DNA of 64,000 nt, taken from Spirochaetota bacterium. Its GTDB lineage: Bacteria > Spirochaetota > Spirochaetia > Treponematales > UBA12059. The position numbers and the translations under genes were made by a program. The stretch lies in the NCBI GenBank assembly GCA_018262985.1, contig JADFDI010000004.1, positions 310,001 through 374,000 of the forward strand, given 5' to 3'. The notes beneath the pieces were generated by a model. It ran no database searches, was not told the DNA's origin, and saw only the letters and a program-made list of their open reading frames with translations. This document shows positions 57,137-61,262 of this stretch, piece by piece (position 1 is the first letter of the stretch; every line of letters starts with the position of its first letter).

Positions 57137-58018
57137 TCATCGACTGGTCCCCACATTCCGATATGTCACAGAAAAGTATTCGGACAGGCTCCGCTTCCAG
57201 TCGGGGACTTCCACGGCGTAGTCGGCCTTGATTTTTTCCTTGGAGAGGACCGAGTAGGCGGGACGTCGCGCCTTGGTGGGATACTCGTCGGTGCGGAGGG
57301 GTTTTACTTCGCAGTCGCGCTCGATGATGCCGTACTCGCGGCCGAGGCGGTGGATTTCGGTCGCGAAGCCGTGCCAGGTGGTTTCGCCGGAATTCGTGAA
57401 GTGGTAGACGCCGTAGCGCTTCCTTCCTGAGCGGGCGATGGCCAGGATGGCGCGGGCGAGGTCGGCGGCCCAGGTGGGGGTGCCCTTCTGGTCGGCCACG
57501 ACGCCGATCGAGGGTCGTTCCTTCATGAGCCTGAGCATGGTGGCCACGAAGTTCGGGCCGTGCGCGCCGTAGAGCCAAGCGGTGCGCAGCACGGCGCTTT
57601 TCGCGCAATTTTCGAGCACCTGCCTTTCGCCGTCCGCCTTGGTCATTCCGTAGACGCCCGTTGGAGCGACCGGATCGCTTTCGAGGTAGGGCCTGTCCCC
57701 GGTTCCGTCGAAGACGTAGTCGGTGGAGATATGGAGGATCCACGCGCCGACATTCTTCGCGAGCCGCGCCAGATTGGCGGGCCCGTCGACGTTGAGGGCG
57801 CGGCAGAGCTCCGGCTCGTCCTCGGCTTTGTCCACCGCGGTGTAGGCGGCGCAGTTGACGATGCCCGAGATACCCTTACCCGCGGCGAAGGCCTCCAGGG
57901 CGGCGGGGTCGAGAATGCTCACCTCGCGGTCGGTGCCGACGAACTCGACGCCCTCGCGTTCGAAGAGGAGCGACAGCTCGGTGCCGAGCATGCCGCGATT
58001 TCCGACGAGCCAGATCAT
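57137..58018 (-). CDS. rmlD: dTDP-4-dehydrorhamnose reductase
   Basis: A 293-residue SDR: IWLVGNRGMLGTELSLLFER, VNCAAYTAVDKAEDEPELCR, ISTDYVFDGTGDRPYLESD, catalytic YGMTKADGE, RTAWLYGAHGPNFVATML and VVADQKGTPTWAADLARAIL. It performs the last step to dTDP-L-rhamnose with NADPH. The start overlaps the HEPN gene's stop by ATGA (58015-58018), so toxin-type and sugar genes share a transcript here. Confidence 0.95.
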   Translation of the reverse strand: MIWLVGNRGMLGTELSLLFEREGVEFVGTDREVSILDPAALEAFAAGKGISGIVNCAAYTAVDKAEDEPELCRALNVDGPANLARLAKNVGAWILHISTDYVFDGTGDRPYLESDPVAPTGVYGMTKADGERQVLENCAKSAVLRTAWLYGAHGPNFVATMLRLMKERPSIGVVADQKGTPTWAADLARAILAIARSGRKRYGVYHFTNSGETTWHGFATEIHRLGREYGIIERDCEVKPLRTDEYPTKARRPAYSVLSKEKIKADYAVEVPDWKRSLSEYFSVTYRNVGTSR

Positions 58019-58428
58019 GCGGTTTCCATCATTCCTTTGGCGGTTTGGGAGAATACCCCGCGATACCCGAGAATCTCGGCGTGCAGGGTCTGGAAGGTTT
58101 CCTTGCGATAGACGTGGCTGAGCGAATTCCGGATCTCGAAGGCGCGGAGCATGCGGTCGAGCGCCGCATAGTCCAGATTCCCGAGCTCGAAGTACTTCTT
58201 GATGATCGGTTTAGGGCTGGCCAGATCGAAGCCATGGATCCGGTCAAGGAACGCCTTGGCGGTTTTCCAGAACAGCCCGACCACGAATTCGAATTTCTGC
58301 GCCTGCCCCGCCCTTACGGCGTCGGCGACGACCTCATCCAAAGTCCCGGTATCGATATCGAGGGAACACTCGAAATCCGCGATCGCCTCGGATAGTTGAT
58401 CGAGCTGGAGCTTCAGTCGTTCTTCCAT
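58015..58428 (-). CDS. HEPN-domain protein (HI0074-type nucleotidyltransferase partner, likely RNase toxin)
   Basis: A 137-residue all-helical protein. EERLKLQLDQLSEAIADFEC starts a HI0074-like four-helix bundle and IRNSLSHVY near the C-terminus is the HEPN R-x4-H catalytic motif. HEPN proteins of this family pair with an MNT protein; in characterised pairs the HEPN is the RNase toxin and the MNT is the AMPylating antitoxin. It overlaps the MNT gene by 16 nt and rmlD by 4 nt. Confidence 0.88.
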   Translation of the reverse strand: MEERLKLQLDQLSEAIADFECSLDIDTGTLDEVVADAVRAGQAQKFEFVVGLFWKTAKAFLDRIHGFDLASPKPIIKKYFELGNLDYAALDRMLRAFEIRNSLSHVYRKETFQTLHAEILGYRGVFSQTAKGMMETA

Positions 58429-58754
58429 ACTACTCCGGGTCCAGCAAGAACCATGGTGCGGAAAGGTTCGGCGGCGCGGTCGAGGTCAACCACGTCGACG
58501 TCATGGGGTATGCGGCTCTCCTCGACGGCGTCCTCGATGGCCCGACTCACCGTGAGGAAAGCGCCTTCATCGAGGCCGGAGAGCGCCAGGTCGAAGTCCG
58601 AGCGCCTAGTGGCCCGACCCGACGCCCGCGAGCCGAAGAGCGTCACCCGGCACGACAAGCCGTGGCACGCGGCCATCACGATGCGCTTTAGTTCGTCCTC
58701 GTATTCCGCTTCGCGGACGGGGTCGAAGTAAGCGGCGGTGGTTTCTTCAGGCAT
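58413..58754 (-). CDS. MNT-type nucleotidyltransferase (antitoxin of the HEPN pair)
   Basis: A 113-residue protein from ATG 58754, with LFGSRASGRATRRSDFDLAL (GSxxxGxxxxxSDxDL) and IPHDVDVVDLDRA as the second acidic site. It would AMPylate the HEPN partner. The frame is open further upstream to 59000, and ATG at 58772 is another candidate; neither has a strong ribosome site. The 16-nt overlap with the HEPN gene is typical of the pair. Confidence 0.83.
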   Translation of the reverse strand: MPEETTAAYFDPVREAEYEDELKRIVMAACHGLSCRVTLFGSRASGRATRRSDFDLALSGLDEGAFLTVSRAIEDAVEESRIPHDVDVVDLDRAAEPFRTMVLAGPGVVWKND

Positions 58755-58928
58755 GGGCAGATCGTACCCCATAAGCTCGATCAGGGTCAAAAGACCGTGT
58801 TCCAACGTTTCCTGGCGTTTTTCATGGCCGATGTTGAAAAACCGACATTTTCGACATGCGATTGATCCTTGCAGACCAGATTCCGGCTTTATGTTCCAAT
58901 TCTCGGCAAGAAGATCGCGAAGCCGTTC

Positions 58929-59287
58929 ATCCACACGCCATTCGGCGCGCGACAGACGGGCAAGTCCACGCTGATCGGGGCATCGCGCCGAATCCAGCAA
59001 CCATCCTCAACTTGTACGATTCGTCCCGGCGTCCGGAACGCGACCGCCGGGATTCCGCTCGTCGAGGCGACGGAGCGGAGGTCGACTTCATCGTGGAACG
59101 GGGCGACGAGCTGCTTCCGATCGAGGTGAAGTGGACCGAGAACCCGAGCCTCAAGGACGCCCGGCACCTCACATCGTTCATGGCGCGCAACCCAGGGCGC
59201 TGCCCGCGGGGCCTTATCGTCTCGCGCTGTCCCTATGTCCTCTCCTTGAGCGACACGATCACCGCGCTGTCCTGGTGGGCGCTGTAG
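58929..59287 (+). pseudogene. Decayed DUF4143-type AAA ATPase
   Basis: Two pieces of one family are visible in different frames. FGARQTGKSTLI (near 58940-58980) is the Walker A loop, in one frame. GAEVDFIVERGDELLPIEVK and the C-terminal PYVLSLSDTITALSWWAL (about 59070-59287) are the nuclease-like tail, in another frame. The middle 250-300 residues are missing, so this is a deleted and frameshifted remnant. An intact member of the same family is at 60084. It explains the otherwise geneless stretch 58755-59361. Confidence 0.7.
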
Positions 59288-59292
59288 GAAGC
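59244..59292 (+). repeat. 49-nt direct repeat, left copy
   Basis: The sequence starting CCTTGAGCGACACG and ending AGGAAGC matches 59912-59960 at 42 of 49 positions without gaps. This copy is the native one: it codes for the end of the decayed ATPase (LSLSDTITALSWWAL). Confidence 0.85.
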
Positions 59293-59361
59293 GAATGGTC
59301 TTATCGAGCCTTTCCGGGCTCCGTATTCAGCGCTATTATCGTATCCGTGGAGGACTATCGA

Positions 59362-59613
59362 ATGGATGCGATATTGACTGAGCTGACGGTGAGCATGTCC
59401 GATTTCAAGAAAAATCCGGCCAAGGTGCTCCGCGAGGCGGGGCGTGAGCCGGTGGCCGTGCTCAATCGGAACAAGACGGCCTTTTATGTAGTCGAGCCGG
59501 AGGTCTACGAGGCGATGCTCGAGGACGCCTGGGAGCGAAGCATCACGACTACCGTTCGTGAACGCCTCGGCAAGGTCGAGAGCGCGGTCGAGGTCGACCT
59601 TGAGCGGCTCTGA
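59362..59613 (+). CDS. Phd/YefM-family antitoxin (StbD-like)
   Basis: An 83-residue protein. TELTVSMSDFKKNPAKVLRE is the Phd N-terminal DNA-binding and dimer motif, then EPVAVLNRNKTAFYVVEPEV, with a C-terminal helix ERLGKVESAVEVDLERL that would wrap the toxin. Phd antitoxins bind their promoter and neutralise RelE-type toxins. GGAGG lies 8 nt before the ATG; TATTAT at 59334-59339 is a candidate -10 box. The toxin gene overlaps by 14 nt. Confidence 0.88.
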   Translation: MDAILTELTVSMSDFKKNPAKVLREAGREPVAVLNRNKTAFYVVEPEVYEAMLEDAWERSITTTVRERLGKVESAVEVDLERL

Positions 59614-59917
59614 CAGATCTTCGGGCACACACCGGCTCAAATTCCTGCCAGAAGCGCTCGATGAATGGAACGGCCTCGACGGATCGGTACGATCGATCTT
59701 GAAGAACCAGCTCGCGCGTCGTCTCGAGAACCCAGTCGTCCCGAGCGCGCGGCTCAAAGGCGAGCTGTCCGACTGCTACAAGATCAAGCTCCGCCAACAA
59801 GGAATCCGCTTGGTCTACACGGTCATCGAAAGCGAGGTCGTAGTGCTCGTGCTGGCCATCGGGCGGAGGGACAGGAACGCGGCGTACCGCTCGGCGACGG
59901 GGCGAAGCCGTCCTTGA
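59600..59917 (+). CDS. RelE/StbE-family toxin
   Basis: A 105-residue protein. LKFLPEALDEWNGLDGSVRS, CYKIKLRQQGIRLVYTVIES and VVVLVLAIGRRDRNAAYRSA are the RelE/ParE pattern, with the basic C-terminal strand that in RelE cuts mRNA on the ribosome. TTG at 59600 is chosen because GAGG lies 6 nt upstream and it gives the usual overlap with the antitoxin. Its 3' end runs into the right copy of the 49-nt repeat, which supplies the stop codon. Confidence 0.85.
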   Translation: MSGSDRSSGTHRLKFLPEALDEWNGLDGSVRSILKNQLARRLENPVVPSARLKGELSDCYKIKLRQQGIRLVYTVIESEVVVLVLAIGRRDRNAAYRSATGRSRP

Positions 59918-59988: not shown

Positions 59989-60027
59989 CTTCGGCAGATT
60001 GAAAGTTGAACTTTCAATCTGCCGAAG
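59989..60027. repeat. 39-nt perfect palindrome upstream of the DUF4143 ATPase gene
   Basis: Arms CTTCGGCAGATTGAAAGTT and AACTTTCAATCTGCCGAAG flank a single central G at 60008. All 19 pairs match. Its core AAGTTGAACTT recurs at 60060-60070. It could be a regulator site, a cruciform or transcript hairpin, or a mobile-element mark. Confidence 0.85.
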
Positions 60028-60029
60028 GC

Positions 60030-60057
60030 TTGCATTCATAGAAATACAGCGTAAAAT
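60030..60057 (+). promoter_or_regulatory. Candidate promoter of the DUF4143 ATPase gene
   Basis: TTGCAT (60030-60035), a 16-nt spacer and TAAAAT (60052-60057) lie between the large palindrome and a second palindrome GAAGTTGAACTTC (60059-60071), just before the ATG at 60084. A repressor bound to both palindromes would flank the polymerase site. Confidence 0.55.
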
Positions 60058-60083
60058 AGAAGTTGAACTTCCAAGGAGCGGGC

Positions 60084-61262
60084 ATGACGTACATTCCCCG
60101 GGCGTTGGCCGGCGAACTCGAACAGGCCTTGAAGGAGTATCCCGTCGTCACCGTGCTCGGGCCGCGACAGTCGGGCAAGACGACCTTCGTCGTCAACGAA
60201 AAGCCCGAGTGGGCGTACGTCAACCTCGAAGACCCGGATCAGCGCCTTCTGGCCGCGAACGACCCCAGAGGATTCCTCGCGTCGCTCGGACGCCCGCTCA
60301 TCATCGACGAAATCCAGCGGGTCCCGAACCTGCTTTCCTACATCCAGGTCGAGACGGACCGTTCAAACGATACAGGCCGCTTCATCCTGACGGGCAGCCA
60401 CCAACTCGAGCTCGGGGCGGCAATCAGCCAGTCGCTCGCGGGACGAACCGCCGTTCTGACGCTCCTGCCGCTCAGCCTCGAAGAACTCGGCGACTCGATC
60501 CGGAACGAAAGCCGGGAACAAACGCTGGTGACCGGATTCCTGCCGCGCGTCAGGAGCCATGGCCAGACTCCGGGCAAAGCCTATGCCAACTACTTCCAGA
60601 CTTACGTGGAACGGGACCTGCGCTCGCTGATCATGGTAAAGGAGCTCGACCGCTTCGAAACCTTCCTCCGCTTGCTGGCGGGCAGGACCGGGCAACTCTT
60701 CGTGGCCAGCTCGCTGGCCGCCGACGTCGGGGTTTCCTACAAGACCATCCAGGCGTGGGTATCGATCCTCGAGGCATCCTACCTCGTCTTCAAGCTGCCG
60801 CCGTTCCACGGAAATTACGGGAAGCGCCTGACCAAGTCGCCCAAGCTCTACTTTACGGAACCGGGCCTCGCAACCTGGCTCTTGGGCATCGAGACGCCAG
60901 CGCAAGCGTCGCGCGACCCGCTCTTCGGAAACCTCTTCGAAAACCTGGTGGTCGTGGAAGCCCTGAAAACGCGCCTGAACGCCGGGCGGAACCCCAGTCT
61001 CTACTTTTATCGGGACGAACGCGGTCTGGAAGTCGACCTCGTGCTCGACCGAAAACCCGACGCGTACCCGATAGAGATCAAGGCCTCCATGAGCTTCCAT
61101 CCGGAACTGCTCAAAGGGCTCGAAGCCTTCCCCGCCAGGCCCGCGGAAGCGCCTTTCGGAACCTTGTTGTACTCCGGCGACATGGCGGCCCCGGAAGGGA
61201 AGTTCGCGATCCGCAATTACCGCGAAACCGGAGCCGTCGTCCGCGAAGCCTTCGCGGTTTAA
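60084..61262 (+). CDS. AAA-type ATPase with DUF4143 nuclease-like domain
   Basis: A 392-residue protein. Walker A GPRQSGKTT (26-34), Walker B PLIIDEIQRVP (71-81) and sensor FILTGSHQL are intact. A middle winged-helix-like region (SSLAADVGVSYKTIQAWVSI) precedes the C-terminal DUF4143 domain with LFGNLFENLVV, GLEVDLVLD and YPIEIKAS, a PD-(D/E)xK-like arrangement. These proteins are widespread and of unknown function; they are often near toxin-antitoxin or defence genes. AAGGAG lies 6 nt before ATG 60084. It is convergent with rmlC, whose stop is 2 nt away. Confidence 0.87.
   Translation: MTYIPRALAGELEQALKEYPVVTVLGPRQSGKTTFVVNEKPEWAYVNLEDPDQRLLAANDPRGFLASLGRPLIIDEIQRVPNLLSYIQVETDRSNDTGRFILTGSHQLELGAAISQSLAGRTAVLTLLPLSLEELGDSIRNESREQTLVTGFLPRVRSHGQTPGKAYANYFQTYVERDLRSLIMVKELDRFETFLRLLAGRTGQLFVASSLAADVGVSYKTIQAWVSILEASYLVFKLPPFHGNYGKRLTKSPKLYFTEPGLATWLLGIETPAQASRDPLFGNLFENLVVVEALKTRLNAGRNPSLYFYRDERGLEVDLVLDRKPDAYPIEIKASMSFHPELLKGLEAFPARPAEAPFGTLLYSGDMAAPEGKFAIRNYRETGAVVREAFAV

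Follow-up and report, generated by a model that had tools for sequence, protein, structure and literature searches.

The palindrome that stands before a DUF4143 gene in the 64,000-nt stretch of DNA analyzed here (the window: Spirochaetota bacterium GCA_018262985.1, contig JADFDI010000004.1, positions 310,001 to 374,000 of the forward strand) is probably the operator of the gene 3′ of it, bound by a dimer of the encoded protein that most likely acts as an autorepressor (probability roughly 0.78). The comparisons below make it very likely that the protein reads its own palindrome, and autorepression is a likely outcome of that binding. The observation with which the analysis began is real and more interesting than was first claimed: as judged from aligned upstream regions, the window palindrome is one case of a family-wide feature of AAA_14/DUF4143 genes in the many bacterial phyla sampled.

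The first-pass annotation had described a 39-nt perfect palindrome, a smaller related one and a promoter between them. A repeat search bore out the first, with two 19-nt arms (59989 to 60007 and 60009 to 60027) that are 100% complementary around a 1-nt center. This main palindromic operator, O1 (59989 to 60027; center, 60008; half-sites, 59990 to 60007 and 60009 to 60026), can be aligned gap-free with 110 operators from homologous genes. The repeat said to be shared by both palindromes, AAGTTGAACTT, is indeed present twice, starting at 60003 and 60060, 57 nt apart; with up to one mismatch allowed, it has four matches (two sites) in the 64 kb, where 0.26 are expected. The smaller palindrome, GAAGTTGAACTTC, was likewise found at 60059 to 60071, with its center (60065) at −19 from the ATG. 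Since its profile score of 4.6 exceeded that of 20/20 flank shuffles, it is probably a weak, proximal second operator that retains the inner core only. Within the 3.44-Mb genome, the core AAGTTNAACTT is confined to two places, both at the window locus, and the 31-nt operator pattern occurs once when up to three mismatches are allowed. The promoter stood only in part. TTGCAT (60030 to 60035) and TAAAAT (60052 to 60057) are present on the forward strand with 16 nt between them, but the pair is weak and falls below the threshold of the consensus scan, which returned no promoter. We therefore treat 60030 to 60057 (forward strand), between both operators, as a candidate weak promoter; a Shine-Dalgarno-like AAGGAG follows at 60073 to 60078 on the same strand.

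We surveyed 179 genes, which comprised loci and regions of the window's phylum, 80 loci from a scan of genome contigs (phyla from Bacteroidota to Proteobacteria, Chlamydiae, Planctomycetes, and Spirochaetes) and a few viral, phage, and plasmid records; the archaeal branch and distant DUF4143 subfamilies lay outside this survey. Odd-centered palindromes with a score of at least 8 were found in 93 of the 179 upstream regions, compared with 9/179 for even-centered palindromes, 1.3% of shuffles and 6/179 downstream regions. Among 56 further, held-out genes, the odd-centered and even-centered counts were 28 and 3, respectively. The promoter palindrome of the family spans 31 to 45 nt around a 1-nt center, and its arms vary between genes, whereas the layout stays the same. 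Of 115 genes with an odd-centered score of at least 7, L050 and L106 (both with an internal stop) and three with duplicate operators were removed to leave 110, whose operators align on their centers without gaps as T-n-T-R-C-A-A-A-T-T-K-n-A-A-R-T-T (position 17 to position 1), followed by any base. Symmetry statistics within these 110 are biased by the selection and were excluded as evidence. Five more genes whose palindrome was off the layout (L063, L186, L132, L032, and L096) were removed by eye, and the remaining 105 were the basis for the covariation, code-table, pair, leave-one-out, shuffle, half-site, and profile tests. The half-site profile built from these 105 operators exceeded the 95% shuffle level in 49/56 held-out genes (44 at the 99% level) and in 60/74 first-set genes outside its training; in downstream regions, the 95% level was exceeded in 4/56 and 2/73, respectively. 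Thus, as expected of an autoregulatory operator, the site lies in the gene's own promoter and is conserved over the family.

What is conserved is the layout and not the letters. The first-pass annotation had proposed looking for literal copies of its repeat before other DUF4143 genes, and this check mostly failed: GAAAGTTNAACTTTC occurs in 8 of 296 genomes of the phylum, and, besides the window's own copy, none of the seven places lies before such a gene as judged by eye. Literal conservation of AAGTTGAACTT was therefore ruled out. Matches to operator patterns were confined to the own gene in G000 and, among seven further genomes searched with two types of pattern, in G273, G282, G268, and G111; of the other three, G230 has a second copy 3′ of the gene, G293 has an orphan copy, and G324, where the gene has a different operator, gave no match. 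We considered whether distinct operators insulate paralogues from each other but found no support for the idea: 0/39 within-genome pairs differ at two or fewer of 14 half-site positions, but between-genome pairs this close are also few (1.4%). Two loci carry additional copies. L068 has a second, near-duplicate operator ~510 nt before the gene, and L300/L018 (G230:C71:22789-22819) has, directly 3′ of the gene, a further palindrome whose outer half-sites are the same.

The gene itself (60084 to 61262, forward strand) is the sole full DUF4143 gene of the genome. Its 392-amino-acid product combines a STAND-like AAA_14 ATPase, a winged helix and a DUF4143 domain of the PD-(D/E)XK type, as assigned from domain, PADLOC, and structure matches. 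It scores as a member of Pfam DUF4143 (157.4 bits; cutoff, 28.1) and AAA_14 (87.1 bits; cutoff, 27) and matches the PADLOC model PDC-S01, a phage defense candidate defined by AAA_14 plus DUF4143, with an E value of 1.3e-98; the window gene and PDC-S01 are thus the same gene family. The residues of the PD-(D/E)XK signature, D318 and E331-x-K333 (codons 318 to 333, 61035 to 61082, forward strand), are each invariant in 179/179 homologues. Walker A K32 and E76 are also conserved in 179/179, and D75 and E286 are conserved in 178. PDB sequence searches gave no useful match, and structural comparison was based on an AlphaFold model (mean pLDDT, 94.8). In this model, a P-loop NTPase is followed by a winged helix in a STAND-like fold, and residues 1 to 268 match the STAND NTPases 2qen (Z = 15.3; 3.2 Å over 245 aligned residues) and 2fna (Z = 14.4; 3.5 Å over 248). 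The C-terminal part, modeled alone (pLDDT, 91.1), matches the PD-(D/E)XK nucleases Can2 (Z = 9.2; 4.3 Å over 142 aligned residues) and McrC (Z = 7.4), as well as restriction enzymes, including Bse634I and BpuSI (Z = 5 to 7), so that both the fold and the D...(D/E)xK residues of this superfamily are present.

For the 105 genes, we computed mutual information, with average product correction (APC), linking 381 protein columns to half-site positions. The strongest pairs were R313 with position 16 (z = 16.0), Y219 with position 7 (15.5), K220 with position 6 (13.2), E312 with position 15 (8.8), and S218 with position 5 (8.0); further top pairs were K220 with position 5, E312 with position 14, and A224 with position 4. 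These residues fall in two places. Codons 218 to 224 (60735 to 60755, forward strand) encode the start of the helix-turn-helix recognition helix, in which residues 218, 219, 220, and 224 covary with positions 4 to 7; residue 219 begins helix 219-231 in the model. Codons 312 and 313 (61017 to 61022, forward strand) encode the turn of a hairpin in the nuclease-like domain, placed by the model between strands 306-310 and 316-323, and covary with positions 14 to 17. For the six pairs tested (313-16, 312-15, 312-14, 219-7, 220-6, and 220-5), the residue ranked first of the 381 columns and 0/300 shuffles reached its value, also when operators were shuffled within protein clusters. In the flank outside the site (positions 19 to 24), the top z was just 3.2. 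Position 13 covaries with scattered columns, a pattern that looks like ancestry.

The pairs can be read as a code. At residue 313, lysine goes with G in 16/16 genes, asparagine with A in 18/21, and threonine with T in 13/16; at residue 312, asparagine goes with T at position 15 in 24/24; and at residue 219, histidine goes with G in 27/30 and serine with T in 19/21. Lysine, arginine, or histidine is found with G, and asparagine is found with A, which is the pairing expected of base reading. Such specificity bears on the proposal that the palindrome is a structural element, a cruciform or an RNA hairpin that no protein reads base by base, or that it serves a cruciform sensor, as the first-pass annotation had considered. 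Near-perfect arms in several genes would suit a structural element. However, the inner positions are often mismatched, the protein's residues predict the bases of the arms, and the site of the −39 class described below precedes the presumed transcript start. Recognition of cruciforms or Holliday junctions goes by shape without base specificity, and here the bases at positions 5 to 7 and 14 to 16 depend on particular residues. Because recognition appears to be base specific, the cruciform sensor is disfavored, and we regard a purely structural role as highly improbable.

In leave-one-out prediction, residue 313 gave the right base at position 16 in 66 of 91 genes, compared with 58 for the nearest protein and 46 for the next best residue, and residue 312 gave position 14 in 88 of 102 (versus 75). 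The residue was no better than the nearest protein at position 15 (76 versus 76 of 99) or at position 5 (64 versus 66 of 85). Held-out prediction was scored for the 31 of the 56 genes whose palindrome reached score 7, with asymmetric positions and residues with fewer than three training occurrences left out. In this set, which includes paralogues from training genomes (e.g., L240, with an operator that closely resembles the one of training gene L090) and the near-identical pair L272 and L273, residue 313 predicted position 16 in 17/22 genes (majority base, 7/22), and residue 312 predicted position 14 in 25/28 and position 15 in 26/29 (commonest base, 11 and 22). Against the same commonest-base baseline, residue 219 predicted position 7 in 16/21 (versus 9), and residue 220 predicted position 6 in 14/22 (versus 6) and position 5 in 15/18 (versus 6). 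Position 17 was predicted from residue 313 in 15/18, with no gain over the majority base (16/18).

Since related proteins have related operators, the covariation could in principle reflect shared ancestry, with a separate host regulator binding the site. When the test was tightened to 52 disjoint close pairs, the outcome was mixed in this respect: Y219 ranked highest for position 7 (P = 8e-7), R313 was second for position 16 behind A166, and E312 was outside the top four for positions 14 and 15. Nevertheless, the signal is concentrated at the helix-turn-helix start and one hairpin (residues 218 to 220, 224, 312, and 313) of 381 columns, survives within-cluster shuffles, and allows residue 313 to predict its base better than the nearest protein does, which together leave very little room for a host regulator. 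The pair test aside, the operator thus coevolves with putative DNA-contacting residues, as an autoregulatory operator should. The first-pass annotation had offered a dedicated dimeric regulator and self-recognition by the DUF4143 protein as separate ideas. Given that residues of the protein itself covary with the palindrome and that the code predicts held-out operators, these data support both, and the two appear to be the same thing.

The position of the site relative to the promoter speaks to the outcome of binding. In the class with centers at −35 to −43 (n = 39), a TATAAT-like hexamer with at most two mismatches stands at center +27 in 18 genes, 21 genes have none at exactly +27, and a Shine-Dalgarno-like motif was found in 0/39. 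In the genes with the hexamer, the right half-site supplies a TTGnnA −35 element with a 17-nt spacer, and the ATG lies near center +39, where transcription should start. The mRNA of this large class looks leaderless, with the site overlapping the −35 element at a fixed geometry. Another 43 genes have centers from −16 to −34, with sites that extend towards the start codon; 23 genes, the window's among them, have a more distal center. The window departs from the canonical geometry in having its operator center at −76, with TTCATA at +27, and pairs this strong distal site with the weak one at −19, the region where many homologues carry their sole site. Such distal and proximal pairing is also found in L012 and L084, but a second operator was rejected as a general feature, since only 3 of the 23 distal-site genes, the window counted, beat all flank shuffles.

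Sequence comparison thus gives the palindrome, its geometry, the protein-DNA covariation and the held-out prediction, from which we infer binding, the dimer, repression and its signal as follows. A dimer of the ATPase-nuclease would bind the palindrome before its own gene. In each subunit, the winged-helix recognition helix (218 to 224) would read the inner half-site, at positions 4 to 7 from the center, and the PD-(D/E)XK hairpin (312 and 313) would read the outer half-site, at positions 14 to 17, approximately one turn of the DNA helix from the inner one. Binding would most likely repress transcription of the gene, since the site covers its −35 element or start region, and relief would come from a nucleotide state or an infection signal. 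In the window, the half-degenerate site at −19 probably adds to repression. The protein could instead act as an auto-activator or as a nucleotide-dependent switch between activation and repression. Many centers lie at −39 relative to the leaderless start, and a center near −39 is close to the class II activator position. However, the site covers the −35 element and the spacer, and in other genes it spans the start, at −20, or is located beyond −44. Covering the promoter at such various places suits autorepression better, and we consider activation unlikely.

Autorepression by this protein would differ from the action of its structural relatives. Unlike in the STAND NTPases (2qen, 2fna, NLR/CED-4, and Avs), the winged helix would read a specific operator and is fused to a PD-(D/E)XK domain, and unlike in Can2, McrC, Bse634I, and BpuSI, the nuclease hairpin would read the outer arms of its own promoter rather than a restriction or junction target. 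A plain repressor would not be expected to keep an intact nuclease, which counts against the autorepressor reading. One could suppose that the palindrome is foremost a nuclease substrate and that the dimer, once bound, cuts or nicks it, either as a switch or to let the gene move. The invariance of D318, E331, and K333 and the location of the base-reading candidates, residues 312 and 313, five residues before D318 would fit such a role, as would a 1,302-bp palindrome-and-gene block found in two contexts on Thermus plasmids. On the other hand, palindromes outlast deleted genes, downstream copies are rare, and neither a target duplication nor a clean empty site was found when looked for; a substrate role is thus no likelier, in our estimate, than activation. 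A further, speculative and rather unlikely reading is that the STAND ATPase-nuclease, its catalytic residues intact, is parked on the perfect palindrome of its own promoter and reads it with the nuclease domain; the operator would serve the armed nuclease as a silent dock and as a self/non-self reference. Upon nucleotide exchange or an infection signal, the nuclease would then be released or fired and the gene derepressed, possibly because the nuclease cuts its own operator. If so, many paralogues would each have an address of their own, which could be read off a few residues.

Several loci illustrate the gain and loss of these genes. The segment 58015 to 61264 is missing from the same-genus genome G270, where the flanking neighbors lie 47 nt apart, and no homologue of the gene at an E value of ≤1e-20 was found in G270 or in the same-family genome G165. 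Within it, 58015 to 59917 is an inserted islet, absent from G270, with a nucleotidyltransferase pair (MntA-like and HI0074-like), a decayed DUF4143 gene, and a toxin-antitoxin pair (Phd/YefM and ParE/RelE-like). The decayed gene (58856 to 59287, forward strand) joins a Walker A piece to a C-terminal PD-(D/E)XK piece, directly behind an imperfect palindrome, ATGTTGAAAAACCGACATTTTCGACAT. We rejected a mobile element with terminal palindromes, given that downstream palindromes scoring at least 8 occur in just 6/179 and that extra half-sites near genes numbered 19, versus 15 in the control. In G273 (L014), the DUF4143 gene immediately follows an open frame, taken here to be the end of cas9; at the same place in G293, the palindrome and the last codons are kept and the gene is gone, which reflects gene deletion instead of an empty site. 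The resulting orphan operator (L296:1501-1533; G293:C3:276007-276039) may now act in trans, via another DUF4143 protein of G293 with a similar operator (L009). Apparent empty sites in Thermus likewise proved to be internal gene deletions with the palindrome kept. The Thermus block mentioned above (L200:3939-5240), which is 95 to 96% identical in its second context, is a small transfer unit with no transposase inside. One of three places in T. thermophilus HB27 is TT_P0211 (AAA 14, DUF4143), for which the expression data in PMC4406477 give a 6.6-fold increase only when both the plasmid and Argonaute are present. A homologue on the Wolbachia plasmid pWALBA2 (L199:1-6905) lies near a RelE/ParE-type toxin gene and Rpn-family genes.

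PDC-S01, an ATPase fused to the PD-(D/E)-X-K superfamily, is listed as the fourth most common defense candidate across prokaryotes, with 29,494 bacterial and 9,986 archaeal systems (PMC12988326); the passages of that paper on PDC-S01 describe no DNA site, regulation, or recognition code. In PMC full text, which puts subscription papers, preprints, and the original PDC paper beyond scope, no mention was found of a promoter palindrome of DUF4143, COG1373, or PDC-S01 genes. The RptR-type repressors of defense islands, as presented in PMC12255303, likewise repress a defense promoter through palindromic DNA, but there the regulator, RptR, is small and separate and its palindrome has 6 bp, whereas here the effector itself would regulate, through sites of 31 to 45 nt. 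If our reading is right, the PDC-S01 family gains a DNA ligand, a residue-to-base code and a regulatory logic, and a "domain of unknown function" gains likely contact surfaces. An abundant candidate antivirus protein, very common yet uncharacterized, appears to control its own gene, which raises the question of why a catalytically intact nuclease would read its own promoter.
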